From the NCBI GenBank assembly GCA_017477465.1, contig JAFUVU010000054.1, forward strand, positions 1-64,000: a stretch of 64,000 nucleotides of DNA. Reading direction: 5' to 3'. The notes under the pieces were generated by a model. It was not told the DNA's origin. It did not search any database and saw only the letters and a program-made list of their open reading frames with translations. Shown here in pieces: positions 29,030 to 47,727 of this stretch (position 1 is the first letter of the stretch; each line of letters begins with the position of its first letter). This stretch comes from Bacteroidales bacterium (GTDB taxonomy: Bacteria > Bacteroidota > Bacteroidia > Bacteroidales > UBA932). Both the position numbers and the translations under genes were made by a program.

Positions 29030-29055
29030 AAGAGGTTATATTTTTAGTTTATCAA

Positions 29056-30879: not shown

Positions 30880-30892
30880 AATCGCATGCATT

Positions 30893-32416
30893 TTAATCGT
30901 CCCAATTCATCGGAGCCGTGTATTCATACCATTCGCAGACTGCGCTTCCGCCCTCGTCCACGCCAAAGTAGATTGTGGAGCTCTTGCCCCAGAGGATGGT
31001 CCTCAGAAGGTTCTCGCTGCTGTCGAAACTGCCGGCCTCAATGCCGTTCACAAGGAAGGTGACATGGCAGTGTTCGGCTCCGCTGGGGTCGAACTTGACT
31101 GTGAGGTCGATGGGCTGCGTGAAGTCCACGTCAGTGAAGGCGGAGATGCTGGGCTTGTTGCCGTCGCCGGCCACATTGAAGTCGAAGCTTACCTTGGCAT
31201 CACCGGGACGCAGGTCTGCCTTGATTTCGGCACTCTCGCTATAGGTGAACCAGTGCCTCACGCGCGGATTGCCGCCGTTGGCGTCGGCCTGCAGGTCTTT
31301 CCAGTGGAAAGTATAGGAGCCGAACTCCATGCTGCGGCTCAGACGGCACCTGGCCGCAAACAATGTTCCGACATCCTTCGTGTAAACCGGGGCGTTGGCC
31401 CAGTCTGATTTCCACAGGCTGATTTCGTCATTGTTTACATAATAGCGGACAGGGTCTATCTTGTAAGCTTGCTTTACGATGACCGGCTTTTCGACCTGGA
31501 ACTCGTCTGCGCTGTCCACTACGTTCTTCACCACAATTTCGGCCCTGCGCATAGAAGAACCGGTGTTTTCGGTAAAGCTGATACTGACGGTACCGTTGCC
31601 TTCGCCGGAAGGGGTTTCGATGGTAAACCAGTCGTCGGACTCGGCTGCTTTCTCAACAGTCCATTTGGAGTTGGAAAGGAGCTCCAGTTCGGCAGAAAGC
31701 TGGTCGTAACCGGCGCGGATTTCTTCAGACAGAGGAACCAACTGGACACCGTCCTGAGTGAATTTCACCAGGGCCACGGGCTCGTCATGCCGGTCATAGA
31801 CGGTGACTTCCGCATAGCGAAGCTCAGATACGTTCTCTTCTGCGTTGATTATGACTTCGCCTTCTCCTTCACCGCTTTCTCCTTCCTCGATGGAGACCCA
31901 GTCACCGTCGGTGACTTTGCTGGACCAAGGCTGATTGGAGTGAATGTGGATCGTGAACTGACCGCCGGACTTCTCTACGTCAAGGGCCAGTTCATCCTCG
32001 GGAACGCTCAGGAAAGCTATGCCTTTCTGGGTCACGGTAATGGTCTTGCCCACCCAACCGTTACTCTGAATGGTAATCCGGTCGGTGCGGTCGTCCAGGA
32101 AAGTATTGTCGTAGTACTGGACTCGGACGGTGGTGGGTTCCGCTTTGCCTACATGAAGGGTTTCCGGATCCACCGGCTGGCCGTCTTCGTCGGATATTAT
32201 GCACCAGGTAGGGTGCTCGCTTGTTATGGTCCAAGGCTTGGAGGAGGCCACCAGGATGGTAAACGCCCTGGCGTTCACTGCCTCCAGCGAGTAGCTGTCG
32301 TCGGCCCGGTAGCGTAGTTCCACCGTGTCAAGCGGCTCCTGCTTGGACTGCTGGCAGCCCGCAAGCCCCGGTAACAGGGCTGCAGCCGCACAGAGTATGT
32401 TGAACAACTTTTTCAT
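30893..32416 (-). CDS. BACON-domain surface glycan-binding lipoprotein 2
   Basis: A 507-residue lipoprotein (LLPGLAGC). After the anchor it has two to three BACON-type beta-sandwich repeats of about 90 residues, recognised by WTITSEHPTWC, IHIHSNQPWSSKVTDGDWVSIEEG and WTVEKAAESDDWFTIETPSGEGNG. The C-terminal domain (about 330-507; YVNNDEISLWKSDW, VSFDFNVAGDG, YFGVDEGGSAVCEWYEY) is Trp/Tyr-rich and resembles carbohydrate-binding sandwich modules. Genes in this position, just after SusD, usually encode surface glycan-binding proteins that feed polymer to SusCD. It sits 2 bp downstream of its paralogue. Confidence 0.82.
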   Translation of the reverse strand: MKKLFNILCAAAALLPGLAGCQQSKQEPLDTVELRYRADDSYSLEAVNARAFTILVASSKPWTITSEHPTWCIISDEDGQPVDPETLHVGKAEPTTVRVQYYDNTFLDDRTDRITIQSNGWVGKTITVTQKGIAFLSVPEDELALDVEKSGGQFTIHIHSNQPWSSKVTDGDWVSIEEGESGEGEGEVIINAEENVSELRYAEVTVYDRHDEPVALVKFTQDGVQLVPLSEEIRAGYDQLSAELELLSNSKWTVEKAAESDDWFTIETPSGEGNGTVSISFTENTGSSMRRAEIVVKNVVDSADEFQVEKPVIVKQAYKIDPVRYYVNNDEISLWKSDWANAPVYTKDVGTLFAARCRLSRSMEFGSYTFHWKDLQADANGGNPRVRHWFTYSESAEIKADLRPGDAKVSFDFNVAGDGNKPSISAFTDVDFTQPIDLTVKFDPSGAEHCHVTFLVNGIEAGSFDSSENLLRTILWGKSSTIYFGVDEGGSAVCEWYEYTAPMNWDD

Positions 32417-32418
32417 AA

Positions 32419-34104
32419 TTACTCAGCAATGACGGTAGGGGTGCATGATTTTACAATATACCAAGTGGCAGAGCCGGAGGAGCCGCTGTCCGTTCCAAAG
32501 AAGTAGTGACCGTTGGCGTCGGAGTTGCCGGCAAACGGAGAGGTGCTTGTGTGCACTTTCTTGCTGTTTCCGTTGTAGAAGAACTCCAAGTCAATTTTGG
32601 TTGCATAGTCCGCATTGGGCTTGAAGTCCACGCGATACTCGGTTATGGCATTCATCTCGTCTTTGGTAATATCGAACGTGGTCGATCCATAGGTAGTATG
32701 GCCACCATTGGTGCGCAGGCGCTTGTTGCCGTTCAGGGAAATCTGGCACTGAAGTTCAGAGTCTCCGGCTGCATCGTGGGTGCACATCCAGAACTGTCCG
32801 GCATCGTCAAAGTTCTTGTCGCCTATTTCAAGGACGATTGATACATAACGGAAGGGATCCTTAAGCGTGACGCGTGACTTCCTGTCACCGAAAATCTTAA
32901 CGGAACCGTCTTCCTGAACTTCCGCACCCTCGAAAGTGAAGTTTATGTCCTTTGTGAGTTCCAGCTCAGCCCTGTTGGCGCCGGCGACTATGGCCACGGT
33001 GCCGGTCTGGGGAGCGAAGTACTTGTTGAAAGGAGTGGTCAGTTTGAACTGGGTGCCGTCAACTTTTTCGACCGTCCAGTCAGGGTTGCTGGTTTCGGGA
33101 GTCCAGTCCATGTCGGCATTCACTTCTATGAAGGATATTGCATAGCCGCCGGGGATGGTTGTGGATTCGGGGGTTACGATTTCAAAGCTGAGACCCTTTT
33201 GCGTTACGTCGAAGGAGTAAGAGGTATCTCCTGCCGATACAGTGATGGTTCCACCGCGCACCGCACCGTCGTTGGCTCCGGCGGTAGCGGTTACAGTGGC
33301 ATTGCCTTCGCCGCTGTCGCTGTCGAAGCTGAGCCAGGTCTTGTCGGCCGTTACTGTCCAGGGCAGTTCGGTGCGGATCTGGAATGTCTGGGAGCCACCC
33401 TTGGAATCGAATGCATCCTCGAAGGCGCTCACCTCGAACTTGGCTTTCTGAGTAACCTCGAAGGATTCCTCTTCATCGCCGGCAGTCACGGTAATCGTTG
33501 CCGTGCGCTCCAGGACCGTGGAAGGATCAGCCGTGGCGATTATGGTGAGGGTGCGGCCCTCGGGGTCGGGGGCTCCGTTTTCGCGGTTAAAGTGCAGCCA
33601 GCTGACGTCGGTAGTGATTTGCCAGTCCTCGTTGGTGAGGATAGTAAATGACAGCGGACCGCCTGCCGCGGAGTAATCCTGAGCAATCGGGGTGACGAAG
33701 AGCCTGCCGAAGCGTGCCTGCGTGATGCTTATCACATAGGTTTTGCTCACGCCCTCGCCGCGGATGGTGAGGGTGGCCCGGCGGTCGTAATCCTCTTCAT
33801 TGGGCTCGAAACTTACCACCACGTCGCTTATCAGCGAAGAGCTTGCGCTCGACGAGGGGGTGACGGTACACCAATCGGCACCGCTGGACCGGGTGATGGT
33901 CCAAGGGGTGTTGGAACTCACATTGAAGGTAATTGTTCCGGGATTGGTGGAGGGAACGGTATAGGTTGTCAGCGCATCGCATTCCATCCGGACGGCGGCC
34001 GCAGCCTTTTCAGGAGTCACCTGCGTGTCGATATGGAACTGCTGGCAGGCAGCGGCTCCGGCAAAAGCAACAAGCAGGGCTAACGTTCTTACGATTGTTT
34101 TCAT
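32419..34104 (-). CDS. BACON-domain surface glycan-binding lipoprotein 1
   Basis: A 561-residue lipoprotein (ATG 34104; lipobox GAAAC). Four BACON-like repeats can be traced: NVSSNTPWTITRSSGADWCTV, TILTNEDWQITTDVSWLHF, QIRTELPWTVTADKTWLSF, and a degenerate fourth ending at about residue 370. A distinct C-terminal domain follows (about 375-561; VSIVLEIGDKNFDDAGQFWMC, HYFFGTDSGSSGSATWYIV) that is similar in plan to the next gene's C-terminus. The BACON repeats likely act as spacers and the last domain as the sugar-binding part. Position after the second SusD supports a surface glycan-binding role. A longer reading from 34125 is possible but lacks a good signal. Confidence 0.82.
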   Translation of the reverse strand: MKTIVRTLALLVAFAGAAACQQFHIDTQVTPEKAAAAVRMECDALTTYTVPSTNPGTITFNVSSNTPWTITRSSGADWCTVTPSSSASSSLISDVVVSFEPNEEDYDRRATLTIRGEGVSKTYVISITQARFGRLFVTPIAQDYSAAGGPLSFTILTNEDWQITTDVSWLHFNRENGAPDPEGRTLTIIATADPSTVLERTATITVTAGDEEESFEVTQKAKFEVSAFEDAFDSKGGSQTFQIRTELPWTVTADKTWLSFDSDSGEGNATVTATAGANDGAVRGGTITVSAGDTSYSFDVTQKGLSFEIVTPESTTIPGGYAISFIEVNADMDWTPETSNPDWTVEKVDGTQFKLTTPFNKYFAPQTGTVAIVAGANRAELELTKDINFTFEGAEVQEDGSVKIFGDRKSRVTLKDPFRYVSIVLEIGDKNFDDAGQFWMCTHDAAGDSELQCQISLNGNKRLRTNGGHTTYGSTTFDITKDEMNAITEYRVDFKPNADYATKIDLEFFYNGNSKKVHTSTSPFAGNSDANGHYFFGTDSGSSGSATWYIVKSCTPTVIAE

Positions 34105-34133
34105 ATGGCTATTTGTTTTATTCAAAGGTTAGA

Positions 34134-35810
34134 CTACCATCCGGTATTTTGGGTAAGGTTGGGATTGGCGAAAACTTCGGACTGGGGGATAGGATACAGA
34201 TTCTGGCGTGCTGCCCAGGTGCGGGACTCCACCGTGAAGCGGCTGTAGTCAAAGTCGGATCCGCTGCGGGTAATCTTGACACCGTCTATCTGCCCCTGTG
34301 TCTGCTGGCCGATATCCCAGCGGCGCACATCCCAGAAGCGGTGGTCTTCGAAGGCGAATTCCACCCTCCACTCACGGCGCACCGCTTCGCGGAAATCGCT
34401 GTAGGAAGTGGCTTCCACATCCGGCATGCCGGCGTTGAGACGCACCTGGTTGATGGCATCGGCAGCACTGATGGTGAGGGTGCCATCGGTCTGGGTGGGA
34501 CTCTGGAAGTACTCGTTGGCGGCTTCGGCATAGCTCAGGAGTATTTCCGCGTAACGGGAAACAATCCATTGATGCTTGAAACTTGAGCGGGCCTCAGGGA
34601 CGAAGCTCGTCTCTTCCTGGATATACTTTCGGAGGTAATACCCGGTAGGAGTGCCAAGGTCGCTGCGGGTTGCGCTATAATCGCGTCCGCCTTCAAAAGT
34701 CTCTATGGTGCTACCCTTGAAGGCCATCCCATTTGCAAGTATGGCCCGCGCAAAACGTGGATCGCGGTTCTCGTACGGCTTGGTGATGTCGAATTCGGGA
34801 TCGGCAGTATGCCATCCGTCCTGGTCAAGCGTAATGTCATAGCCGTTCAGGGTCTGGAAAGCATCTACCAGGTTTTGCGTAGGATAGTTTCCTGCAATAT
34901 AAGAACGGTAACCTTCCGTGAAACGGACCGGGAAGTTTGTCAGTTCAAATCTGTCGTCTTCGCTTCTCAGTATGGACATTATCACTTCCGGCGAGAGATA
35001 ATTGTTGGCCTTTTCGGCCGGATCCAGCCGATACAGCTGCATATCCATCACCTCTTTTGCCGCCTTGGCTGCTTCCAGCCACTTTGCCCGGTCGCCCGAA
35101 GGATTGTGAAGTGGTGACGCTGCATAAAGAAGAGCCTTGGCTTTTACCGCCAGGGCAAAGCCCTTGGTGACACGGCCGATTTCCTCTCCCAGCATTCCGG
35201 TCCAGTTAATGGGGAGGTTGGCGGCACATTCGGTACACTCGCTCTCAATGAATTCAATCACCTCATCGAACGGCGTTTTCTCGATTTCATTGGCCTGCTC
35301 TGCAGTGAGCATGGTCATGGGAACCGGGATGTCGCCATAGCGCCTGGCCAGTTCAAAGAGATAATAGGCACGGAGAACACGGGCTTCGTAAGGATAATAC
35401 TTCAGGTGTTCCAGCCACTGACTGTAATTGGCATCATACTGGAACATGCTAATATCCACGGTTTCCATCGACTCGAGGAACTCTGCAACACTGCGGACAG
35501 CATTATAGAGGCTCCATTTGTCGTCCACGGTCTGGAGCGGGCTCCAGTTTCCGTTGATGAAACGCTGGACAGAGGCGTCCTGATCGGCATACTCGGCATC
35601 ATCGGAGCCGCACTCACGCATGGCATTGGAGACGTCGGCGATATTTTTGCACGGCATATATCCGTAAATATTGGTAAGCATCCGCTGGATATTGCTGTAT
35701 GTCGTATACATATCCTCACGGGAGTAATCGCTGGATGTTTCGTCGAATTCCAGGAAGTTGCAGCCTGCAAGAAGGAGCGCAGCGGATAAAATATAGAATA
35801 ACTTTTTCAT
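34134..35810 (-). CDS. SusD-like glycan-binding lipoprotein, second pair
   Basis: A 558-residue lipoprotein (MKKLFYILSAALLLAGC). The N-terminal part has the SusD TPR-like helical scaffold (YEARVLRAYYLFELARRYGDIPV near 140, EKTPFDEVIEFIESE, TKGFALAVKAKALLYAASPLHNP). The C-terminus has the RagB/SusD domain (YAEILLSYAEAANEY, LNAGMPDVEA, VRREWRVEFAFEDHRFWDVRRW, YPIPQSEVFANPNLTQNTGW). SusD lids bind glycan at the cell surface and close over a SusC channel. Its partner is the SusC-OmpA fusion 15 bp upstream. The substrate is inferred from neighbours to be chitin-derived. Confidence 0.93.
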   Translation of the reverse strand: MKKLFYILSAALLLAGCNFLEFDETSSDYSREDMYTTYSNIQRMLTNIYGYMPCKNIADVSNAMRECGSDDAEYADQDASVQRFINGNWSPLQTVDDKWSLYNAVRSVAEFLESMETVDISMFQYDANYSQWLEHLKYYPYEARVLRAYYLFELARRYGDIPVPMTMLTAEQANEIEKTPFDEVIEFIESECTECAANLPINWTGMLGEEIGRVTKGFALAVKAKALLYAASPLHNPSGDRAKWLEAAKAAKEVMDMQLYRLDPAEKANNYLSPEVIMSILRSEDDRFELTNFPVRFTEGYRSYIAGNYPTQNLVDAFQTLNGYDITLDQDGWHTADPEFDITKPYENRDPRFARAILANGMAFKGSTIETFEGGRDYSATRSDLGTPTGYYLRKYIQEETSFVPEARSSFKHQWIVSRYAEILLSYAEAANEYFQSPTQTDGTLTISAADAINQVRLNAGMPDVEATSYSDFREAVRREWRVEFAFEDHRFWDVRRWDIGQQTQGQIDGVKITRSGSDFDYSRFTVESRTWAARQNLYPIPQSEVFANPNLTQNTGW

Positions 35811-35825: not shown

Positions 35826-38800
35826 TTATTTGATGATACAGACGGCTACGCGGTTGCTGTCCGGGCTCATGGAGCTGTCCTTGTCGCTTCCGGTGCTGGA
35901 ATAGCTGATTCGGCTTGCGGCAATGCCTGCCTCTTTGAGCTTTTCTACCACGACGGCTGCGCGTTCGGCCGACAGGCGCTTGTTGACATCGACTGTACCG
36001 GTAGCGGTATCGGCATAGCCGGTGACCGTGATTTTTGCATCGGGGTTGTCCTTCAGAATCTGGGCGATGCGGCCGAGTTTGAAGGCCTCATCGGGTCTGA
36101 GCTCAGCCTTTCCGATGACAAAGAGAAGGTCGTCCTCGTACGTGCCTTCCAATGTGGAGGCGGGAACTTTCACTTCTTTCACGACTTCTTTCACCACCTC
36201 TACGGGGACTTCCTTAACAACTTCGCGGTCAACGTATTCGATGACCTTTTCAGGGACGTAAGGATCGACCTTGCTTACGCTTGCAGGACGTTTGGAAGAA
36301 GCCTTTGAGCCTTCGGACGAGCCGAAGTTGAGCTTGATTCCGCCCCAGAAGGTACGAGTAGAAGGATAATAGGCGCCAAGCTGCTCCGGATCGGCAAAGT
36401 GGATATTGTCCAGGCTGAACAGGTTTGTCGCCATGAGGAATACCGTAGCGTCGCAGAGACGGAGCAGGCGCTGAGGGATGGTATAGGAGATACCAACGTT
36501 GCGCAGCTTGATAAAGGAACCGTCGCGGTACCACAGGGAGTTATTACGGTAGTTGTTGGAGTTGGCCTGCGTTGTGAGTCTCGGCATGGTAGCCAGGTGT
36601 TCGCGGCCGGGAGCCCAGGTGACCTCCCTGTTGAGGAAGGTATCGGAAATGGTGCCGTTGCCGACAAGCGGCTGGTACAACGGGCTGTCAAGGAGGTTGA
36701 TGGTGACACCGGTCACACCTTGGAAGTCGGCATACAGCTTAAGCCCTTTCCATCCCAAATTGAGGCCGAAACCAAAAGTGCACAGCGGAGTTGAGGAGCC
36801 GAACATCTTCACGACATCCTGGCTGTCGATGACTCCGTCGAAGTTCTGGTCCTGGTATTTGAGGTCGCCGGGACGCACCTCGCCGAAGGTCTGGCGGGGA
36901 GAGTTGTTAATCTCCAGCTGACTCTGGAAGATGCCAATGACTTCAAGACCGTAGCGCTGTCCCACGGGGTTGCCCTTGTGGTACAGGTAATCGTACATCT
37001 GGTAAGCCTGGCCGTCGTTGATGACTTTGGAGAAAAGCCAGGCGCCGTTGGCATAGGCCCCATAAGAGAAGTCGCCTATCCTGTCGTTCCAGTTCAGGGA
37101 GAGATCGACGCCTTTGTACGACTGTTCGCCCAGACTCTGCTCGTTCACGCTAACGCCAAGAACGCCGGAGATGTTGGAAGGACTGATGAGGATATGGCTG
37201 CGGTTTTCTATGAAGGCATCGGCATTAACTGCCAGGCGCTTGTCGAAGAAACGGACATCTGCGCCCACGGTGACCTTCTTGGAAAGCTCGGGGGCCAGGG
37301 TAATGGCTGCCATGGCACCTTCCTGACGTCCGCTGAAGGAAGATCCACCGTTCTGGCCGAAGTAATAGCTGTTGCCACTCACATAGCGCTGGCGCCAGAG
37401 TTCATGCTCAAGGTCGCCGTCGCTGCCGGCAAGGCCTGCCGATGCATAAAGTTTCAGATACGGGTCGCCCGGCAGAACCACTGCCGCAACACTCAGGGCC
37501 GGGTACAGGTTGAAACGCTGTCCTTTGGGCAGATATGCCGATCCTGAATAGTTTACGACTGCATCTGCGAAGATGCGCTCTTTCCAGTTATAACTGACAC
37601 TGCCCAGGATTTCCTGAGTTCTGGATGAGTTGTTCTGGCCGCTGAAAATCCAGGAGCGCTGCCTGTAAGCTGCGTGAGCCTCAAGGTGATGGGGGCCGAA
37701 TTCGCGGGCCCAGTTCAGTCGGCCCTGGATCTCAAACTTCATCTGAAGGTTGGAGAACCAGTGGGAATAAGAAGGAGTCTTGGGGTCAACTCCGTAGTAA
37801 AGCTGTTCGCTGAGAATGTAGCTGTGGTCTCCCGCGGCAGCCGTAGTGCTTACAAGCTCCGAATAGCGGTAACCTTTCGCTACTTCTTCGGACAGGCGGC
37901 CAATGTAATCGAAAGCTACGTTCACATCGGCCCACAGGCCTTTGGTTACAGCCCCAAGGTCCTGACGCAACATAACGTCGGCCAGCACTTTTGTCTGGGA
38001 ATAGAGTTTCTGGCCGCTGTCGCGAAGCATGGCGACCGGGTTGGACGTTCCGTAAAGGGGTGTTCCGCCATAAGTGCCATCCACCTGCTTGATCGGGAAG
38101 GCTGCGGCGGGCAGACTGTACAGAACCGATTCCAGGCGTCCGCTGTAGTCGCCTTTGTTGAACTCTGCAAGACGGGCCATGACGCCCACCTTCATCATGG
38201 TGGTAGGAGTGATGTTGACATCGATGTTGGCCCTTAAGCCAAGACGGTTGTCAAAATGGTTGGCATTGTAACGGTCGTCCGTGTTGCTACGCCTGTAAAG
38301 GAAATCTTCTTTGAGGTAGTCGACGGCCGCAAAATAGCGGAAGTTCCTGTTGCCGCCGGTAAAAGTGAACTGGGCATGGTGGTTGTCTCCATGGCACCTG
38401 TAAATTTCATTCCACCAGTCAACATTCGGGTAAGCGTAAGGATACTGTCCGCTGTATAGAGCAAGGAGCTCGGCGTCGTTGTAACGGGGTGAAAGGCCGT
38501 CCAGGCTGCGTGCCTCGTTCATCATGAAGCCATAAGTATAGGCATCTGAGAAATCAGGAGCCCGGAAAGGAAAGGCAGCGCCGTACTGATACTTTGCCGT
38601 CACCTTGAGCGGGGTGTCTTTCCCTCGCTTGGTAGTGATGCAAACTACTCCGTTGGCACCTTTTACACCGTAAAGAGCAGCTGCCGCAGCATCCTTAAGG
38701 ATAGAGATGGATTCTATCTCCACGCCTGAAAGATCGTCCATTTCCCTGGGGAACCCGTCCACCAGGATAAGAGGGCTGTGGCTGTGCAGACGAAGTGACA

Positions 38801-39074
38801 GTTTCAGTTTGGACTGGTTGGAGTCGTAGGTACTGGAACCGTTTTTCACCAGCAAGCCCGAGAACTGTCCGTAGAGTGCATTGGAAACGTCCGCCTCCGG
38901 GCTCTTGGCGAAAATATCACCGTCCAGCTGCTGGTTTACATTCGCCCGAATCCGGAAGGAATTGCCAAGCGAGACGGAATCCAGCATGGACCGCGTCTTT
39001 TCATCCTGAGCCGCTGCTTGAACAGTTAGCAGGAGGAGAAGCGGAAGAGAAATATATTTAAAAAGCTTTTTCAT
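35826..39074 (-). CDS. SusC-like barrel fused to a C-terminal OmpA peptidoglycan-binding domain
   Basis: A 1,082-residue outer-membrane protein starting at ATG 39074 (MKKLFKYISLPLLLLL signal). It lacks the usual N-terminal carboxypeptidase-like domain and any TonB-box of the VVVAYG kind. The SusC plug begins directly (ALYGQFSGLLV, LILVDGFPREMDDL, IESISILKDAAAAALYGVKGANGVVCITTKRG). The barrel closes at about residue 925 (FWGGIKLNFG). A Val/Glu/Lys linker follows (VIEYVDREVVKEVPVEVVKE), then an OmpA domain (about 960-1082) with FVIGKAELRPDEAFKL, ITVTGYADTATGT and NKRLSAERAAVVVEKL. The OmpA end should bind peptidoglycan. I know of no standard SusC with this layout. Its SusD partner follows. Confidence 0.9.
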   Translation of the reverse strand: MKKLFKYISLPLLLLLTVQAAAQDEKTRSMLDSVSLGNSFRIRANVNQQLDGDIFAKSPEADVSNALYGQFSGLLVKNGSSTYDSNQSKLKLSLRLHSHSPLILVDGFPREMDDLSGVEIESISILKDAAAAALYGVKGANGVVCITTKRGKDTPLKVTAKYQYGAAFPFRAPDFSDAYTYGFMMNEARSLDGLSPRYNDAELLALYSGQYPYAYPNVDWWNEIYRCHGDNHHAQFTFTGGNRNFRYFAAVDYLKEDFLYRRSNTDDRYNANHFDNRLGLRANIDVNITPTTMMKVGVMARLAEFNKGDYSGRLESVLYSLPAAAFPIKQVDGTYGGTPLYGTSNPVAMLRDSGQKLYSQTKVLADVMLRQDLGAVTKGLWADVNVAFDYIGRLSEEVAKGYRYSELVSTTAAAGDHSYILSEQLYYGVDPKTPSYSHWFSNLQMKFEIQGRLNWAREFGPHHLEAHAAYRQRSWIFSGQNNSSRTQEILGSVSYNWKERIFADAVVNYSGSAYLPKGQRFNLYPALSVAAVVLPGDPYLKLYASAGLAGSDGDLEHELWRQRYVSGNSYYFGQNGGSSFSGRQEGAMAAITLAPELSKKVTVGADVRFFDKRLAVNADAFIENRSHILISPSNISGVLGVSVNEQSLGEQSYKGVDLSLNWNDRIGDFSYGAYANGAWLFSKVINDGQAYQMYDYLYHKGNPVGQRYGLEVIGIFQSQLEINNSPRQTFGEVRPGDLKYQDQNFDGVIDSQDVVKMFGSSTPLCTFGFGLNLGWKGLKLYADFQGVTGVTINLLDSPLYQPLVGNGTISDTFLNREVTWAPGREHLATMPRLTTQANSNNYRNNSLWYRDGSFIKLRNVGISYTIPQRLLRLCDATVFLMATNLFSLDNIHFADPEQLGAYYPSTRTFWGGIKLNFGSSEGSKASSKRPASVSKVDPYVPEKVIEYVDREVVKEVPVEVVKEVVKEVKVPASTLEGTYEDDLLFVIGKAELRPDEAFKLGRIAQILKDNPDAKITVTGYADTATGTVDVNKRLSAERAAVVVEKLKEAGIAASRISYSSTGSDKDSSMSPDSNRVAVCIIK

Positions 39075-39093
39075 CTTCGGGTACATTTTTAGG

Positions 39094-40920
39094 TTACCAA
39101 CCCGGATTTTGAGTCATTCCGTAGCCTTTGTTTATTTCACTGGTAAGGATAGGAGCCAGATACCACTTGGTGTCCCAACTGGTGTACCACTGACGTCCGG
39201 GGAAAGCATCAATCTCCTGGAAGGTGAAGGAGGTGGCGTTCTTGGTATCGTTACCAATGGCACGGAGAGCCTTGAGAGGAGTTGTGAAAGCCTCAGTAAG
39301 GCCATAGCGAACCATGTCGAACCAGCGGACTTCTTCAAAGCCGAACTCAAGTTCCCTCTCGAGGAGGAGAGCCTTGCGGAATTCTTCCTGGCTCATTCCC
39401 TCTTCCAAAGGTTTCAGGCCCACTCGTGCGCGGACTGCATTCACCCAGGTATAGGCCTTGTCTGACGGACCGCCGTCGGCCTCGTTATAGGCTTCGGCAG
39501 CATTGAGGAGCACTTCGGGAAGGCGCATCATGCACCAGTGCGGCATTGTATTGCGGTCCGAACTCTGCTGAAGAATGTATTTCATCATCAGGAAGCCGGG
39601 GCAGTTGGACTGCGCATACTGGTGGTTGCTGTAGGAGCGGCCGACAGTACCGTCACGCCAGATGTCACCCGGCACGCAGATATTCTCGTACAGGCGCGGG
39701 TCACGGGTTTCAGAGAATGTTGTCGAACTCACTTTCAGGGTACCGTTCGGATCCTGCTTGAAGAAAGGCTGCTCGGGCCAGGAGCTCTTGTCTTCCCAGT
39801 TGAAATCTTCCGGGAAAGGAGTTCCGTCGGCCCAGGGGAACTTGTTCACCCATGTAAGGGTGGCTCCGTTTCCGAAGTCTCCGGTACGTTTGATCCAGTC
39901 ATCGTGATAGGAAGTACTGTTGCTCTTACGGATGGAAATGATGGTCTCTGTGGTTCCGCGTTCAAAATAACCTTTGCGGTATGCAAGGCGGTAAGCCCTC
40001 GGGGTAATGAGTCCCGTTGTCGCATCCGGGGCGGCCTGAATCATGGCGTAATAGCCGTTGGACAGCAGTTCACGCATAAAATCATCGGCTGCCGCTTTGG
40101 CTGCCTGCCAACGGGCGGGGTCGTAATTCATATAGCAGGCATACTCATTGGCCTGCGGATGGAAGGGCTTGTCGGAATTGAAAGTAGGAGATGCGGCGAA
40201 GCACAGCACGCGAAGCTTGAGGCCAAGGGCAGCCGCACGGGTAAGGCGTCCGTCATCGGCACCGCTTACGCTCCAAGGAAGGTCCGGAGCAGCCTCCGTA
40301 CACATCCTGACTATGAAATCGACCGTCTCCGCAAAGGTATTCCGGGGATATTCCATCGCTTCGTCTAGCTTCACCGAGTGGTCAAGAATAGGCACGCCGC
40401 CCACATAGCGGAGCATGTTGGCGTACGAGATGGCAAGGCACATCTTGGCCTCGGCCTTCTTGCAGGCGAGTATGCCGGGGTCTGCGCCCGGGATACGGTC
40501 TGCGTTCTCAAGGAACAGCCAGGCGTAACGGATGGCAGTATAGTCCTTTTCCGAGCCAAAGCAATAATTCATGCCGGAGGTGCCGCTTGTCAGGGAAGCG
40601 TTGAGGGCGCCGTTATAGTACAGGCCGACGGGGCCGTCGCCTTCGGTGTTGATATTTGAAATATAGTGGTCGGTCAGGGATTCTATGATATCTCTTCCCA
40701 GAAGGTCGTCAAAACCGGAGGGAATGCCGTAGGGAAGATAATAGTATGCCTGGGCCAGCACTTTGTCGGCATCCTTGACAGTGGCGAAAAGGGTGTCCAG
40801 CGTGGCACCGGAACTCTCAGGTGCCTTGCTAAGGCCGGCGTCTCCCAATTTGAGACTCTCGCATGCGACCAGCCCTGCTCCCAGCAGGACGAGGGTCAAT
40901 ATTTCTGCAAATCTTTTCAT
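39094..40920 (-). CDS. SusD-like glycan-binding lipoprotein, first pair
   Basis: A 608-residue lipoprotein (MKRFAEILTLVLLGAGLVAC). SusD hallmarks: AYYYLPYG near residue 60, CKKAEAKMCLAISYANMLRYVGGVPI, FAETVDFIVRMCTEAA, LGLKLRVLCFAASPTFN, RLPEVLLNAAEAYNEADGG, VNAVRARVGLKPL, LLLERELEFGFEEVRWFDMVRYG, and the terminal YGMTQNPGW. It is larger than its paralogue downstream and clearly diverged from it, so the two pairs probably prefer different chain lengths or forms of the glycan. The start is 12 bp after the SusC1 stop. Confidence 0.94.
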   Translation of the reverse strand: MKRFAEILTLVLLGAGLVACESLKLGDAGLSKAPESSGATLDTLFATVKDADKVLAQAYYYLPYGIPSGFDDLLGRDIIESLTDHYISNINTEGDGPVGLYYNGALNASLTSGTSGMNYCFGSEKDYTAIRYAWLFLENADRIPGADPGILACKKAEAKMCLAISYANMLRYVGGVPILDHSVKLDEAMEYPRNTFAETVDFIVRMCTEAAPDLPWSVSGADDGRLTRAAALGLKLRVLCFAASPTFNSDKPFHPQANEYACYMNYDPARWQAAKAAADDFMRELLSNGYYAMIQAAPDATTGLITPRAYRLAYRKGYFERGTTETIISIRKSNSTSYHDDWIKRTGDFGNGATLTWVNKFPWADGTPFPEDFNWEDKSSWPEQPFFKQDPNGTLKVSSTTFSETRDPRLYENICVPGDIWRDGTVGRSYSNHQYAQSNCPGFLMMKYILQQSSDRNTMPHWCMMRLPEVLLNAAEAYNEADGGPSDKAYTWVNAVRARVGLKPLEEGMSQEEFRKALLLERELEFGFEEVRWFDMVRYGLTEAFTTPLKALRAIGNDTKNATSFTFQEIDAFPGRQWYTSWDTKWYLAPILTSEINKGYGMTQNPGW

Positions 40921-40932
40921 CTCTCAAAGGGC

Positions 40933-43900
40933 TTAGAATGTGATATTGATGGCCAGGTTATAAGTCTTCACGAGCGGATACTTACCGTTGGAACTGCTGG
41001 AGGTAGCCTCAGGATCCTGAAGTGTCATGTAGGCGAACGTAAGCATGTTGTAGCCTGTGAACATCAAATTCAGGGAACTGATTCCCAGTTTGTCGAACAG
41101 TTTGTTGCGCGAGAAAGTATAGCCGAAACTTGCGCTCTTGAGGCGGATATAAGAGGCATCCTGAACCCAAAGAGTGGACAGGTAATCGTCTCCGCCATTC
41201 CAGTTCCAGTTTGTCATAGTAAAGCGCGGAAGGGTGCCGTCTTCGCGGCCGGGAGCCCAGGGGTTGTCGTTTGGAATCCAGCAGTTCTCGGCAAAAACGG
41301 TCAACAGTCCGCGGTGACCGGTATTGGTGAAGGGGTTGCGGTAGTCGGCGTTCAGCTTACGGCTCACATTGGTGGCCGCCACCCAGTTGAGGGCCAGGTT
41401 GAAACCCTTGTAGCCGAACTTCCAGTTTGAGCCGAACACCCATTCGGGGCGATTTGGATAACCGCCTCTGACACGGTCGTTTCCGTTGATGCGGCCGTCT
41501 CCGTTCACGTCCTTGTACATGGCATCACCGGGATGAACGGTCACGCTTGGCTGCGGGAGGTCGGGATTGAGGCGCTCAACGCCGTCGGCGTCTGTGTAAA
41601 AGTCGCTTCTCTGATAAAGCCGCTCAAACTGATAGAGAAGATAACGGTCGGTAGAACCTCCTGTTTCGGCCATATAGGGCTCGCCGGGGGTAACCTCGTC
41701 CATGTTGATGATCTTGTTGCGGGCAAAGGTCACATTGGCGTCAAGGTCATAGGTGAACGCGCCGATATGGTCTTTCCAGCCAAGAGCGACCTCGAAACCT
41801 TTGTTGTCAACTATACCCAGATTCATGTCGGGCGGAGAAAGGGCGATGATGCCGGGCAGCGTTTTGGGAGTGATCAGGATACCTGTGCGATGCTCGGAGA
41901 AAATATCACCCGAGAAATGCAGGCGGTAATTGAACATGTCAAAATCCAAACCCACATTGTATTTCAAGGCCGTTTCCCAAGTAACGCCGGGGTTGCCGGG
42001 AGTTCCCAATGCGAAACGGGGAACGCCATCGGTCTTGCCTGCGCCGAAATAATACGAACCGGCATCGGTCCAGACACCTTCCATATACATAAATCGGCTG
42101 TCATTGCCCCTGTCGTTACCAACTTTGCCGACAGATGCGCGCAGTTTAAGGAAGTCTATCCAGCCGACATGCTTCATGAATTTTTCCTCGGAAACTACCC
42201 AGCCGATGGACGCCGACGGGAAAAGACCGTAACGGGTTTTTCCGGGGGCGAAGTTTTCAGAACCGTTATAACCGGCCGAAACGTCCAGAAGATATTTGTC
42301 AGCATAGCCGTAAGTAAGTCTTCCCACGAATCCTACATAGCCGCGGGGCAGATAGGAGAGCTTTTTAAGCGCAGACTTATCAGAATCCTGGTAAGGATAA
42401 TAGTCGCGGGACTGATTGTAAAGCAACAGACCGCTCACTGCATGTTTGCCGCCGAACTTGCGGCTGTAGTCGATGCGGGCTTCCAGATACCAGGACTTGT
42501 CGTCGGACGTGCTTTCGCTATAGCTGAGCGTGGGTTCACTGCCGGAAATCTGGGGGATGATGGTCTTGTCAAAAGCCGGGTCGGATATGCTCAGTCCGGG
42601 GGTATTGACGAAACCGGCGAAGTGCAGGGTCTGTTTGTAACCACCGCTGCCCGTACGCTTTTTGTTAAGCGACATCTCCGTGTCATAGCTTCCTTTGATG
42701 GAAGCACTCAGGCCCTGGGTAATAAAGTCCAGACGTTGGGTAAGGGTAACATCCATACCCAGGGTGGTTTTGTACTTGTTTTGGTAACCGGCCCAGTAAT
42801 AATATTCCCAACCATTCCATGCCGTAAGACTCTTAGGCAGAGTCTCTGCGTCCTTTTCATTTGTAATGGCCATTCCGTTTACGATGCCGGGGCTGCCGGT
42901 AGGGTGAGCCCATAGCATGGAACGCATCCAAATGTTGTCTGCGGTGGAGAGAGGTTCCCGGGTGTCACCGATAACTCCGCTTATATTGAACTTCATGTCC
43001 GTTGTTTCGGTGAGTTTGAAGTCCAGGTTGGCACGGTAGTTATATCTGTTGTAGGAATAGTTGTTGTCATAACCCATGCCCGGAATCTGTTTCAGCAGAC
43101 CGTTCTGGTACATATAGCCCATGGATACGAAATAACGCACTTTGTCCGAACCTCCGCTGATGTTGATATTGTTCTTGGTCTGGAGGAAGGCCTTGCGGAA
43201 CATCAGTTCGTTCCAGTGCGTGTTAGGGTACATGATGGGGTCGCTGCCCGTGCGGAATGCCTCAATGGCTTCCGGAGTGAAATAGTTTGCCACCTGCGGG
43301 TCGTCGTCGTTGTAGTGCATCACGTTGTAGTAACGCGCATAGTCATAGCTGTCGGCCTGGGTGATGTAGGCCATGGGCATCTGCACACCGGTGATGGAAC
43401 TGACAGAAATCTTGGGCTTGCCGGCATCGCCACGCTTTGTCGTGATGATGATGACACCGTTAGCACCACGCACACCGAATACGGCGGTTGAGGCAGCATC
43501 CTTGAGGATTGACAGGCTCTCGATTTCGTTGGGATCGACAGTGTTCATCGGGCGTTCCACGCCATCGACCAGAATCAGCGGGGTAGATGCTCCGTCCGAA
43601 AGGGAACTGGCGCCACGGATGTAGATCTTGGCGTAGTCTTCGCCAGGCTGACCTGACTCCTGCACTGTGGAAACACCCGGCATCTGGCCGGCGAGGACGT
43701 TGGTGACATCGGCCACAGGTGCCTTGATGAGCGCCTTGTTGTCGATGGAGGTGAGGGCGCCGGTGACCGTGGCTTTGGTCTGCGTACCGTAAGCCACCAC
43801 CACCGTTGCCTCGATGGACTGGGTGTCGTCCCTCAGCACAACGGTAAAGTTGCGCTGCTTGCCTACGCGTATCTCCTCGGTCACATAACCAAGGGCCGAT

Positions 43901-44142
43901 ACTTCCAGCACCGCAGTCTCACCGGGGACGGCAAGGGTGAATTTACCGTCCATGTCGGCAGCCGCGCCGGTGGTGGTTCCCTTCAGGGTGACACCGGCAC
44001 CGATAACCGGCAAACCGTCTGCGTCCACGACAGTACCCGTGACGGTAATGCCTCTCTGGGCGCGGGCGGGAAGGCACCACAGTCCCAGACTCAGACACAG
44101 AGCAGCAGCCAGTTTCAGTAATTGGACTACTTTGGTTTTCAT
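40933..44142 (-). CDS. SusC-like TonB-dependent transporter, first pair
   Basis: A canonical 1,069-residue SusC/RagA. It has a signal peptide (to ARAQ, about 29), a carboxypeptidase-like domain (ITVTGTVVDADGLPVIGAGVTLKGTTTG, about 32-108), a TonB-box region (ATVVVAYG near 113), a plug (VTNVLAGQMPGVSTVQESGQPGEDYAKIYIRG, LILVDGVERPMNTV, IESLSILKDAASTAVFGVRGANGVIIITTKRG), and a beta barrel to the end (YNLAINITF). It imports oligosaccharides across the outer membrane using TonB energy with SusD1 as lid. It follows GH18 by 36 bp without a visible promoter, so it belongs to the long transcript begun upstream of the kinase. Confidence 0.96.
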   Translation of the reverse strand: MKTKVVQLLKLAAALCLSLGLWCLPARAQRGITVTGTVVDADGLPVIGAGVTLKGTTTGAAADMDGKFTLAVPGETAVLEVSALGYVTEEIRVGKQRNFTVVLRDDTQSIEATVVVAYGTQTKATVTGALTSIDNKALIKAPVADVTNVLAGQMPGVSTVQESGQPGEDYAKIYIRGASSLSDGASTPLILVDGVERPMNTVDPNEIESLSILKDAASTAVFGVRGANGVIIITTKRGDAGKPKISVSSITGVQMPMAYITQADSYDYARYYNVMHYNDDDPQVANYFTPEAIEAFRTGSDPIMYPNTHWNELMFRKAFLQTKNNINISGGSDKVRYFVSMGYMYQNGLLKQIPGMGYDNNYSYNRYNYRANLDFKLTETTDMKFNISGVIGDTREPLSTADNIWMRSMLWAHPTGSPGIVNGMAITNEKDAETLPKSLTAWNGWEYYYWAGYQNKYKTTLGMDVTLTQRLDFITQGLSASIKGSYDTEMSLNKKRTGSGGYKQTLHFAGFVNTPGLSISDPAFDKTIIPQISGSEPTLSYSESTSDDKSWYLEARIDYSRKFGGKHAVSGLLLYNQSRDYYPYQDSDKSALKKLSYLPRGYVGFVGRLTYGYADKYLLDVSAGYNGSENFAPGKTRYGLFPSASIGWVVSEEKFMKHVGWIDFLKLRASVGKVGNDRGNDSRFMYMEGVWTDAGSYYFGAGKTDGVPRFALGTPGNPGVTWETALKYNVGLDFDMFNYRLHFSGDIFSEHRTGILITPKTLPGIIALSPPDMNLGIVDNKGFEVALGWKDHIGAFTYDLDANVTFARNKIINMDEVTPGEPYMAETGGSTDRYLLYQFERLYQRSDFYTDADGVERLNPDLPQPSVTVHPGDAMYKDVNGDGRINGNDRVRGGYPNRPEWVFGSNWKFGYKGFNLALNWVAATNVSRKLNADYRNPFTNTGHRGLLTVFAENCWIPNDNPWAPGREDGTLPRFTMTNWNWNGGDDYLSTLWVQDASYIRLKSASFGYTFSRNKLFDKLGISSLNLMFTGYNMLTFAYMTLQDPEATSSSSNGKYPLVKTYNLAINITF

Positions 44143-44178: not shown

Positions 44179-45504
44179 TTATAAAACTGTTTCTTTTCCG
44201 TAAACGCCTTTTACAAGGGCTTTCAGAAGGTCGTGCTTGTCGGTGTCGCCCCTGTATTCCCAGAACATGGCACCAAGTAGGCCGCCACTGTTCACATACT
44301 GGCCTTTGGCCTCCACCGACTCGGGGTCGTCGTAGGAGAGGCAGTTGCGGCCGCTCTCATCGGCAAGGTAGGGGACCATGGAAGCGGCATCCCACACGCG
44401 GTGGAGCTTGCGCTTTACCTCCACGCCCATGTAAGTACCATTGCTAACGATGGGGACGATGTCTTTGTATTTGATGGAATAACTCGTATTGCCTTTGCTG
44501 TCCACGAAGACCTTATTGGCATCCGACGGGTTCTTTTCCGCCTTGCCGTAGAAGGGAACGCCCATAACCATCCTCTCTTTGGGCACGCCGCCGCTCACAT
44601 GGGCCGATATGCTTTCATCCCAGCTGCGGTGGGTGAATTTCGTCCCCTTGTGCAGCGGGGAATTGTGGCCGTTGGGGGCGGCTCCCATGTCGTAGGTCAT
44701 CACGTTCACGTAGTCCAGATAATTCATGGCTGTTTTCCAATCCACGTACTTGGCGCTGGAAGATGAGGCGAAGGAGATAATCTTGCCGGTTCCCAGCGTT
44801 TCGCGGAGTTCCTTGAGGACAAGATTGAAATTCTGAGTGTCGGAAGGGTCGCAGCCGGTTTCATTGTCGGCGCTTTGGGTGGGATATTCCCAGTCGATGT
44901 CCACCCCGTCCAGCTTATGTTTGTCAAGAAGGGCCTTGACCGATTTGCAGAAAGCGGTACGCTTTGCAGCGTCGCGGGCCATCATTGAGAAACCGTCGGC
45001 ATGAGCTCCCCAGCCGCCGATCATGAGCATCACCTTCAGCTTGGGATTCTGGCTCTTGAGGGCCACCACCTTGGAGATGGGCGCCTGCTTGGATTCGGTG
45101 ATCACAATGCCGCCGTCGCCGGTTTTGGGGTTGCCGAAGCGGCCGTGAGCATAATTGATATGCGTAAGAAGGCTCACTTCGGGGATGGTTTCGGTGTATT
45201 CAGTAAAATACGCCAGAACAATGGGAGTCTGGCCGATGTCGGTGCACAGGGTGCCGGTGCCTGGCTGAGGGTCGGTGCCCGTTCCGGGATCAGTGCCGGG
45301 GTCGGTTCCGGTGCCAGGTTCAGTTCCAGCGCCGGGCTCGGTCCCTTGCTGGTCGCCGGTGCCGCCGGGATTGGTTGAACTGCCGCCGCCCGAGTGCGAA
45401 GAAGGCGGAGGAATCACATAACCCATATTGTCCTTGGAGCAGTCGCCGGAGCTGAGCACCAAAGATAAAACAGCCAAAGCCAGTATGTTAATTATCCGTT
45501 TCAT
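44179..45504 (-). CDS. GH18 chitinase lipoprotein with Gly/Thr/Pro linker
   Basis: A 441-residue surface-type lipoprotein (lipobox LVLSSGDC). Residues about 37-85 are a repetitive Gly/Thr/Pro/Asp linker. The catalytic barrel (about 90-440) shows VMLMIGGWGAHADGF, the DGVDIDWE motif with catalytic acid Glu206, ISFASSSSAKYVDW, and YVNVMTYDMGAAPNG. This is the chitinase pattern, rather than the endo-beta-N-acetylglucosaminidase pattern as far as I can judge. It shares clear homology with the GH18 part of the gene at 23689 but has no propeller. It lies 3 bp after GH20 and is likely the first surface endo-enzyme of the locus. Confidence 0.9.
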   Translation of the reverse strand: MKRIINILALAVLSLVLSSGDCSKDNMGYVIPPPSSHSGGGSSTNPGGTGDQQGTEPGAGTEPGTGTDPGTDPGTGTDPQPGTGTLCTDIGQTPIVLAYFTEYTETIPEVSLLTHINYAHGRFGNPKTGDGGIVITESKQAPISKVVALKSQNPKLKVMLMIGGWGAHADGFSMMARDAAKRTAFCKSVKALLDKHKLDGVDIDWEYPTQSADNETGCDPSDTQNFNLVLKELRETLGTGKIISFASSSSAKYVDWKTAMNYLDYVNVMTYDMGAAPNGHNSPLHKGTKFTHRSWDESISAHVSGGVPKERMVMGVPFYGKAEKNPSDANKVFVDSKGNTSYSIKYKDIVPIVSNGTYMGVEVKRKLHRVWDAASMVPYLADESGRNCLSYDDPESVEAKGQYVNSGGLLGAMFWEYRGDTDKHDLLKALVKGVYGKETVL

Positions 45505-45507
45505 CGC

Positions 45508-47727
45508 TTAAAGCATTTTGATGGAACTGAATTTGTCGTCCGGGCGCCTGCGCACAAGCACGTCTGTCTTGTTGCGGATTGAATTCCAGCCTCCAACTAC
45601 GTTATAAATGAAAACCACCTTAACGCTGTGGGGACCGGCTTCAAGGACCGCCTCGGCGTCGTGCCTTGAGTAGCGTTTTACCTCTGCGCCATTGTCAATG
45701 AGGAGTTTACCGTCTATCCACACCTGGTCGCAGTCGGAGCTGAAGCGGTAGGTATCTGTAGCCTCAACGGAGAAGAAACCCTCTGCCACGGCGGCATAGA
45801 AGACAGTGCTGTCCGGAAGGTTGCGGTTGAAAGGCTCCAGGGTGCTCAGATCGCGCAAACGCTTGATGGAGACATCTTTCCAGGGCACATCCTTGATGTC
45901 TGCGGCCTTAGTGAAGCGCCCGTCGGCCCTTTTTGCCTTGAGGCCGCTTTCGACGGCGGCGGCAGGCTGTGCAGGCCAAGGCTCCTCCTTGGTGAGGGTA
46001 ATGGTGCGCACAGGGCTAAGCTTGCCGTAGGAAGTGACGGAGGCTGTCTTAAGGACGGCGCTTTCGGTGAATTCCAGAGGCTTAGAGTACGCCATCGAGG
46101 CTGATGTGGGCTCGCTTCCGTCCAGGGTATAGACAATCTTGCCAACGGGGCGGGTGGTGGTAAAGCTGACGACGGCCTTGTCCTGGAAGGCCAGCTTGTC
46201 GCAGCTTCCGCCGGGCTGCTCAGGGAGAGGAATATGGTAATTCACTCCCCTTCTGTCAAGATCCCGGCAGGCCTTGTCCACGCGGACGCGGAAGCTTTCC
46301 CAATCCTTGTTTTCCGCTGGCGTCCAGGCGGTTTCGGCCACTGCGAAGGCGCGCGGGAACATCATGTACTCCCGCTGGCTGTCGCTGTAGATGTATTCGC
46401 TCCAGGTATTGCACTGCAGGCCAAGCACGTGAGAGGCCTTTCCATTCTTGATAAGCTCCTCAGGCACAGGCTCATACTTATAAGCCTTTTCCAATGTAGT
46501 GTACCTGCCGATGGTAACGGGCTCGATCTTGGGGTCGCCCTGGAAATGGTCAAGGTACATGCCGTCGTGCGAGGGGGTCATGATAACGTCGTGCCCTGCG
46601 AGGGCCGCGGCGATACCGCCTTCCATACCGCGCCAGCTCATCACCGTTGCGTTTGGACTTAGGCCGCCTTCAAGGATTTCGTCCCAGCCGACAAGCTTGC
46701 GGCCGTGGGCGGCGAGGATGCCCTCCATCCTGCGGACGGCGTAGCTCTGAAGCTTTTCCTCCGCAGTGCCGGCGGCATCGGCCACAAGGCCTTCCGCTTT
46801 GATTCTGGCCTGGCAGGCGGGGCATTTTTCCCATTTGTCTTTCTTGCACTCGTCACCGCCGATGTGGATGTACTCCGAGGGGAAGAGCTGCACCACTTCC
46901 GAAATCACGTCTTCCAGGAACTCGAACATATACTCCCTGCCGGGGCAGAGGGCGAAGTCCGGAGAGCCCCAAGTATAGAAGGTGCTGATGCTTTCCTTGG
47001 TGCAGGTGAGGCCGGGATATGCCCTGGCGGCTGCAGTGGAATGGCCCGGCATCTCGATTTCCGGAACCACGGTGACATGACGCTCGGCAGCGTAGGCCAC
47101 AACCTCGCGAATCTGCTCCTGGGTATAGTAGCCTTCGTGCACTGAGCCGTCGAATTCCACGCGGCTGCCGCCAATTTCCGTAAGTCTTGGATACTTAAGG
47201 ATTTGGATGCGCCAGCCCTGGTCGTCGGTAAGGTGCCAGTGCATGACGTTCATCTTATAGGCCGACAGTATGTCTATGTAGCGTTTGGTTTCCTCAACCG
47301 AGAGGAAGTGACGGCAAGGGTCAACGTGGAAGCCTCTCCATCTAAAACGCGGGTAATCGGTAATTTTTACGCAAGGAAGATTCCCGGTCAAGTTCAGAAG
47401 ATTCCCGGTCAAGCCGGGAATGACAGTAGTGCCGGGAATGACGGTGGTGCCGGGAATGACAAGGGCGTCATGGCCGACTTGATCGGCCATCTGGAGCTGG
47501 CGGAGGGTTTGGCAGGCGTAGAAAAGACCTGCCTCGGAAGAAGCCACTACCTTTAAGCGTGCGCGAGTGATATCTATTGTGTATCCTTCTTCCGGCAGGC
47601 CGGAGGCGGGATCGACCACAAAGGACATCTTTGCCGGATCCACTTTGAACGAGCCGCCCCGCACCTGCATTTGGGCGGGCGCGGGAATTAGCTGGATAGC
47701 GGCGGCTAATATGAGCGTAAGTAGCAT
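45508..47727 (-). CDS. GH20 beta-N-acetylhexosaminidase
   Basis: A 739-residue exported enzyme that removes terminal GlcNAc (or GalNAc) by substrate-assisted catalysis. The domains are an N-terminal GH20b sandwich (about 12-120), the TIM barrel (about 125-480; RGFHVDPCRHFLSVEETKRYID, HWHLTDDQGWRIQI, and HIGGDE with catalytic Asp292-Glu293), a chitobiase C-terminal-like domain (KIVYTLDGSEPTSASMAY), and a PA14-like tail (YRFSSDCDQVWIDGKLLIDNG). Residues 90-117 are an in-frame repeat (VIPGTTVIPGTTVIPG). It overlaps the alkaline phosphatase stop by one base (TAATG). In this locus it would process chitooligosaccharides from the GH18 enzymes. Confidence 0.94.
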   Translation of the reverse strand: MLLTLILAAAIQLIPAPAQMQVRGGSFKVDPAKMSFVVDPASGLPEEGYTIDITRARLKVVASSEAGLFYACQTLRQLQMADQVGHDALVIPGTTVIPGTTVIPGLTGNLLNLTGNLPCVKITDYPRFRWRGFHVDPCRHFLSVEETKRYIDILSAYKMNVMHWHLTDDQGWRIQILKYPRLTEIGGSRVEFDGSVHEGYYTQEQIREVVAYAAERHVTVVPEIEMPGHSTAAARAYPGLTCTKESISTFYTWGSPDFALCPGREYMFEFLEDVISEVVQLFPSEYIHIGGDECKKDKWEKCPACQARIKAEGLVADAAGTAEEKLQSYAVRRMEGILAAHGRKLVGWDEILEGGLSPNATVMSWRGMEGGIAAALAGHDVIMTPSHDGMYLDHFQGDPKIEPVTIGRYTTLEKAYKYEPVPEELIKNGKASHVLGLQCNTWSEYIYSDSQREYMMFPRAFAVAETAWTPAENKDWESFRVRVDKACRDLDRRGVNYHIPLPEQPGGSCDKLAFQDKAVVSFTTTRPVGKIVYTLDGSEPTSASMAYSKPLEFTESAVLKTASVTSYGKLSPVRTITLTKEEPWPAQPAAAVESGLKAKRADGRFTKAADIKDVPWKDVSIKRLRDLSTLEPFNRNLPDSTVFYAAVAEGFFSVEATDTYRFSSDCDQVWIDGKLLIDNGAEVKRYSRHDAEAVLEAGPHSVKVVFIYNVVGGWNSIRNKTDVLVRRRPDDKFSSIKML
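47377..47460 (-). repeat. In-frame VIPG/LTGN repeat in the GH20 gene
   Basis: Direct repeats of GCCGGGAATGAC (around 47415, 47433 and 47450) and of AAGATTCCCGGTCAAG (around 47375 and 47396) give the peptide VIPGTTVIPGTTVIPG followed by LTGNLLNLTGN. The CCGGGAAT and ATTCCCGG parts are inverted relative to one another. It interrupts the N-terminal domain just before the conserved DYPRFRWRGFHVD block. Confidence 0.8.

Follow-up and report, generated by a model that had tools for sequence, protein, structure and literature searches.

A SusC-type protein with a C-terminal OmpA domain in a Bacteroidales bacterium: a candidate TonB-driven importer tied to peptidoglycan by an exchangeable tail

The stretch of DNA analysed here (the window) comprises 64,000 nucleotides of contig JAFUVU010000054.1 (assembly GCA_017477465.1) of a Bacteroidales bacterium. 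It contains a gene, here designated SusC2, whose product joins the plug and barrel of a SusC/RagA-type protein to a C-terminal OmpA-like domain. Taken as a whole, SusC2 is best explained, in our view probably correctly, as a TonB-driven SusC importer that an OmpA cassette, itself subject to recombination, fastens to peptidoglycan. The gene is one uninterrupted frame of 1086 residues, and its parts are as follows:

35826..39086, minus strand: SusC2, SusC/RagA-type protein lacking a carboxypeptidase-like (CPL) domain and bearing a C-terminal OmpA domain, 1086 residues (open reading frame and domain searches)
39009..39086, minus strand: signal peptide, about residues 1-26 (by eye; orthologs keep the ...AQ end)
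38961..38984, minus strand: TonB-box-like segment LDSVSLGN, residues 35-42 (conservation in 52 orthologs and column of canonical TonB boxes)
38646..38927, minus strand: plug domain, residues 54-147 (Pfam PF07715)
36324..38930, minus strand: SusC/RagA plug and barrel, residues 53-921 (TIGR04056)
36126..36320, minus strand: Val/Glu/Lys-rich linker, residues 923-987 (sequence)
35877..36125, minus strand: OmpA-like peptidoglycan-binding domain, residues 988-1070 (Pfam PF00691)
36009-36011, minus strand: Asp1026 (residue conservation)
35961-35963, minus strand: Arg1042 (residue conservation)

The plug-barrel-linker-OmpA architecture is real. SusC2 scored 546.7 bits against the SusC/RagA family TIGR04056 (cut-off 368.25), and its plug carries the SusC signature TIGR04057 (61.5 bits, cut-off 46.2; both NCBIfam). 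The Pfam plug match is barely over its cut-off (25.9 vs 23.9 bits), and the Pfam OmpA match has an E value of 1.8e-14 and 54.3 bits (cut-off 27.2). Neither Pfam nor NCBIfam matched a CPL family in SusC2, whereas the neighbouring SusC1 has such a match. The solved structure nearest to the whole protein is 8aa4, a 'SusC homolog' (1.2e-45), and the one nearest to the OmpA part is 9uu2, a 'Major outer membrane protein' (2.4e-14), followed by Pal and other OmpA-type structures. An earlier note on this DNA had described the succession of plug, barrel, Val/Glu/Lys linker and OmpA domain, as well as the missing CPL domain, and the domain matches bear out both descriptions. The span given there, 35826..39074, lies in the right frame, but its upper end is an in-frame Met four codons inside the start at 39086.

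The assembly from which the window comes is incomplete (2.42 Mb, 73 contigs, 82.5% complete), which leaves some room for a sequencing or assembly artefact that fused two genes. The open reading frame recurs, however, at 99% identity in a second assembly (genome G741), the fusion is present in orthologs from five further genomes, and in a collection of named genomes fused genes occupy 29 of the 67 loci listed as matching the tail alignment. A frameshift or assembly chimera is excluded as the origin of SusC2 by these records, the possibility raised in the earlier note that resequencing would split the gene has failed, and an artefact is scarcely credible. In the genome of the window itself, contig C67 carries one further SusC-OmpA gene and contig C15 another two; the three frames have 1140, 1194 and 1256 residues. 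The layout of the C15 pair is CPL, VVVTALG, plug, barrel, linker and OmpA. The C67 paralog (locus L001, 5528-8806 plus upstream sequence) has the TonB box VVTAMG and a tail 63% identical to that of SusC2; its CPL part is out of frame, which reflects either decay or an assembly error. The statement in the earlier note that the last barrel strand is where known SusC proteins stop holds for 45 of 52 close orthologs of SusC2 but not for these three further fusions.

The ends of outer-membrane barrels, including the end of the last strand, face the periplasm, so a tail placed after the last strand can reach the wall. The tail of SusC2 takes this position. By the GYAD and LSxxRA motifs, Asp1026 and Arg1042 are presumably the equivalents of Asp271 and Arg286 in OmpA of Acinetobacter baumannii. 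The latter two residues are reported to bind diaminopimelate (PMC5974059). None of the 63 tails of the type seen in SusC2 lacks the Asp, and none of 73 tails, among them 10 of the Prevotella type, lacks the Arg. Judged by its position and its retained ligand residues, the tail of SusC2 very likely binds the wall, and the idea of a peptidoglycan-anchored SusC, put forward in the earlier note, is well supported by the sequence.

The fusion is concentrated in the genus of the window, a group that probably corresponds to GTDB Cryptobacteroides, and, according to the named collection, in Prevotella and Segatella. Among 151 genomes of the genus, at least 49 tail matches lay in open frames of at least 900 residues, in at least 19 genomes, with up to six per genome among the matches listed. 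The 29 fused loci of the named collection comprise 18 from uncultured Bacteroidales/Bacteroidia, one labelled Bacteroidaceae and 10 from Prevotella/Prevotellaceae/Segatella, including Segatella copri iA622, whose fused protein has CPL, plug, barrel and OmpA matches (Pfam) and is followed downstream by a SusD gene and two GH92 genes. Among the matches listed, the named record closest to SusC2 is Bacteroidales bacterium UBA4231, with a tail 98% identical. In an order sample of 393 genomes, including that of the window, the open frames among the matches listed outside the window's own genome were at most 851 residues long (these matches reach about E 5e-14, at a threshold of 1e-12), and in a phylum sample of 345 genomes the open frames among the matches listed reached at most 739 residues, none of 900. 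These samples are thin and miss cases such as the fused Prevotella, Prevotellaceae, Segatella and Bacteroidaceae loci of the named collection. A Prevotella-type tail searched against 324 genomes of the order gave three matches, all at a barrel end with a stop behind. The ten Prevotella/Segatella loci (L046, L048, L050, L052, L058, L062, L063, L073, L080, L086) apparently represent one conserved SusC-OmpA ortholog, and nine aligned tails of this type are 81-88% identical to that of L048. At least two types of linker exist, since an Ala-rich, coiled-coil-like linker replaces the Val/Glu/Lys one in L142, L143, L144, L145 and L146.

The absence of a TonB box and a possible independence of TonB were put forward for SusC2 in the earlier note, and neither is supported by the comparison with homologs. 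In 400 genomes of the genus, 83 had a SusC2 match at E 1e-140 or better; the homologs read, a subset of those found, numbered 61 after removal of duplicates and were 45% or more identical across some 800 residues. Without eight distant homologs and the truncated L188, 52 close orthologs remained. Residues 35-48 in these orthologs follow the pattern [LMIV]-D-S-[IV]-x-[LI]-G-N-x-[FY]-x-[LIFV]-x-A; Asp36 is present in 52/52, Ser37 in 50/52, Gly41 in 49/52, Asn42 in 51/52 and Ala48 in 52/52, and the stretch between this segment and the plug is largely variable. Residues 35-42 occupy the column of the TonB box, in which remoter CPL-less SusCs have LDTIRLGYG, LDEISLGYG, AQTVDLGYG or KTVDVAYG and the canonical SusC1 has EATVVVAYG. 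In this alignment the LDS[IV]xLGN-type segment grades via relatives into the canonical VVVAYG box. TonB boxes of Escherichia coli receptors also start with Asp-Thr followed by alternating hydrophobic residues.

The OmpA tail itself is not a mark of TonB independence; a CPL domain was found in 61 of the 71 fused SusCs with a closed 5' end, followed by a TonB-box pattern in 53 of the 61 and, by eye, in the other eight. The ten without a CPL match are the seven members of the SusC2 ortholog group and three further loci: L001, with its CPL out of frame, L102, a fragment, and L040, which starts at VVTAMG and whose matching place in genome G165 holds an internal TAG. As most fused SusCs keep the CPL domain, its loss and the presence of a tail are separate traits that meet in SusC2. 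Other CPL-less SusCs of 887-961 residues (L149, L150, L151, L016, L155, L156) are tail-less, and for several of them a longer SusC lies on the same contig at a distance of a few kb; pairs of a long and a short SusC may be a general pattern of the polysaccharide utilization loci (PULs) in these genomes.

The reading of the earlier note, in which SusC2 does without TonB and serves, fixed to the wall next to the canonical SusC1, as a passive channel, a scaffold or a receptor, draws on the missing CPL domain, the divergence of the segment from a canonical box, the weak plug match and the adjacency of the two SusCs in 12 of 12 compared loci. It seems improbable to us given the clear constraint on the segment, with its invariant Asp, and the CPL domain and TonB box of most fused SusCs. 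The same segment and gene order are also kept in tail-less orthologs, which weakens the scaffold idea. That SusC2 still uses TonB is, as judged from its conserved segment, likely.

The tail is optional among close relatives. Seven of the 61 homologs are tailed (155-162 residues) and 54 end at the last strand; among the 52 close orthologs the figures are 7 and 45. Placed on a tree built from the barrels (60 rows), the seven tailed rows require five changes, against a mean of 6.8 after shuffling. As 8 of 500 shuffles reached a value this low, the tailed rows are somewhat clustered, but forcing them into one clade was rejected (p 4.85e-7), and the tail-less L207 (79%) adjoins SusC2 and its near-copy. 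Genome G741 has two SusC2 homologs, L201 and L226, on contigs C12 and C25, one tailed and one tail-less, 63% identical to SusC2. In a canonical SusC family represented on C15, searched in 200 genomes, six members of at least 81% identity are tailed (own gene included) and members at 73, 62 and 59% are tail-less; the tail status of a partial match at 81% (G164) cannot be judged.

The bases behind the stop codons bear on how the tail was gained or lost. By eye, TAAACCGGG follows the stop in 35 of 46 tail-less homologs (L188 included, the eight distant ones left out) and in none of the seven tailed, and in most carriers GAAACGAT-type bases then fill the space before the SusD2 start codon ATG, again in none of the seven. 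Loss of the tail through a simple stop mutation is therefore unlikely, and recombinational replacement fits better than a new stop codon. In addition, AAAGCGCGA stands after the stop in the other tailed SusCs L036 and L110 and in the tailed orthologs L027 and L176, which hints that tail and following bases move together. The presence of the tail has changed repeatedly, most simply via recombination.

The tail might alternatively have no selected role and be a passenger of recombination at the 3' ends of SusC genes, tolerated in the periplasm and lost in the same way as it was gained; the patchy and often changing occurrence (7/52), the identical gene order with or without the tail and the small number of changes on which selection can be judged all fit this possibility. 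We nevertheless hold it to be unlikely, because not one of the 63 tails of the SusC2 type has lost the ligand residues, single genomes carry up to six fused SusCs among the matches listed, and the frames of the tails remain open across divergent copies.

SusC2 lies in a locus with two SusC/SusD pairs, in which the following neighbours were recognized:

30893..34125, minus strand: two BACON-domain proteins (30893-32416; 32419-34125; Pfam)
34134..35810, minus strand: SusD2, the partner lipoprotein, directly downstream of SusC2 (Pfam SusD_RagB, 3.2e-49)
39094..40920, minus strand: SusD1 (Pfam SusD_RagB)
40933..44142, minus strand: SusC1, SusC of the canonical type, having a CPL domain and the TonB box VVVAYG (Pfam, NCBIfam, alignment column)
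44179..45504, minus strand: glycoside hydrolase family 18 (GH18) enzyme (Pfam)
45508..47727, minus strand: GH20 enzyme (Pfam)
47727-48890: alkaline phosphatase-like gene (by eye only)
48890..51346, minus strand: GH2 enzyme with an exo-beta-D-glucosaminidase-type Ig domain (Pfam)

A ROK kinase and an AraC-type regulator are also found in the neighbourhood. All 12 related loci compared share the order SusC1-SusD1-SusC2-SusD2, six with a tailed and six with a tail-less SusC2. The BACON and enzyme genes continue in these loci where the stretch reaches, with gaps: a GH18 match is absent in L202, L207 and L208, and a GH20 match in L204, L205, L206 and L148, the last of which has one BACON match. With GH18 and GH20 genes beside SusC/D pairs, as in chitin-type PULs, chitin or chitosan oligomers appear to be the best fit for the substrate, and N-glycans are possible. 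Further along the window, a 1057-residue DUF4988 protein (25856-29029) contains an internal duplication, in which two copies of a 300-nucleotide piece, spaced 1017 apart, are 96% identical; parts of this repeat return at 73-75% in the next gene (window 25856-30891).

We propose that SusC2 acts as the second SusC transporter of a two-pair locus of the chitin/chitooligosaccharide utilization type. SusD2 would capture the sugar, the plug of SusC2 would gate the barrel, and TonB would pull the short, diverged TonB box, whose place right after the signal peptide would be explained by the loss of the CPL domain. The OmpA cassette, comprising the linker and the peptidoglycan-binding domain, would be swapped by recombination between tailed and tail-less copies, and the tail, leaving the barrel on its periplasmic side, would reach the sacculus and tie the importer to the wall. 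The likely benefit would be that the importer is kept in the envelope and out of shed vesicles, and/or that the outer membrane gains extra anchor points; we give retention or tethering an even chance of being what the tail provides. Alternatively, the tail could serve the envelope rather than import, with SusC being merely an abundant barrel that bears an extra outer-membrane tether, in line with the finding of tails on many different SusC barrels and with the precedents of OmpA/OprF and of OmpM, as reported (PMC10628300). The genome of the window has non-fused OmpA-domain matches too, so that tethers are not lacking. PUL genes are usually glycan-induced and thus ill suited to a constant tether, and we regard this alternative as very unlikely.

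Several observations weigh against the picture of a TonB-driven, wall-tied importer with a recombining tail. The Asp is absent in all ten Prevotella/Segatella-type tails (YASPEG or alike in its place), which keep the Arg, and the OmpA domain in these proteins may have another ligand. The TonB-box-like segment of SusC2 is diverged, without the canonical Tyr and the Val run. The tree of the seven tails alone, which has few columns, does not reject a single clade (p 0.53), the tree held to one clade scoring slightly better, and the data demonstrate repeated change of tail presence, not repeated independent gain. The idea that tails are more alike within genomes was dropped: the nearest tail came from the same genome in 10 of 45 rows, as opposed to 0 of 45 for barrels, and shuffling was not significant (63/500). 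Between SusC2 and its 99% relative the tail has three synonymous and three amino-acid changes (33 and 12 in the barrel), too few to show purifying selection. Finally, the retention of tailed SusCs from vesicles is suggested by analogy only. In Bacteroides thetaiotaomicron, an ortholog of porin F that has a peptidoglycan-binding domain is reported to be retained in the outer membrane, and some other SusC-like proteins to be enriched in both membrane and vesicles, but SusC itself was mostly in the outer membrane (PMC6222051). As this SusC has no tail, a tail is not needed for retention in every case.

No description of a SusC-OmpA fusion was found in the titles and abstract starts of open-licence literature on SusC/TonB-dependent proteins with OmpA and on TonB-box loss, by which absence from print is not established. 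Of the earlier suggestion that the architecture might prove common and already described, the first half is true for the genus and the second found no match in that literature. The single parts are already known; the literature searched showed neither the combination of OmpA with SusC nor how widely it occurs or that it is exchangeable, and these appear to be what is new here. SusC importers are a main route of glycan uptake in gut Bacteroidota. It is conceivable, though tentative, that in these Bacteroidales the tether between outer membrane and wall is a mobile cassette, gained and dropped by importers via recombination, so that wall anchoring is spread over many SusCs; the anchored class would be fixed, not lost with vesicles, and meet TonB at a set distance, and the CPL-less branch would add a re-shaped TonB box. 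The tail has the look of a tether that can be swapped, not of a novel means of powering import. The series of copies with and without a tail at one locus position, together with the cultured Segatella copri, makes the effect of anchoring on uptake, vesicle sorting and envelope strength testable.

SusC2 shares features with several known systems. With SusC/RagA proteins (TIGR04056) it has in common the plug, the barrel, the SusC signature, the SusD partner gene and the location in a PUL; it differs in the missing CPL domain, the diverged TonB box and the added linker and OmpA domain. With proteins of the OmpA/OprF type (PF00691) it shares the succession of barrel, linker and periplasmic domain, the last of these bearing the ligand residues Asp and Arg, but its barrel is of the SusC type with a plug, whereas that of OmpA is small. 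The chitin utilization locus of Flavobacterium johnsoniae likewise has two SusC/D-like pairs (CusC/D I and II) with GH18 and GH20, and is reported, unlike the locus described here, to be under two-component regulation; single cusC deletions are reported to have no phenotype there, and deletion of both pairs to cripple growth on chitin (PMC5127042). OmpM of Veillonella parvula, as described, also combines a nutrient channel and an outer-membrane tether in one protein, but it is a trimeric porin of a different fold and phylum, whose periplasmic stalk binds polyaminated peptidoglycan (PMC10628300).

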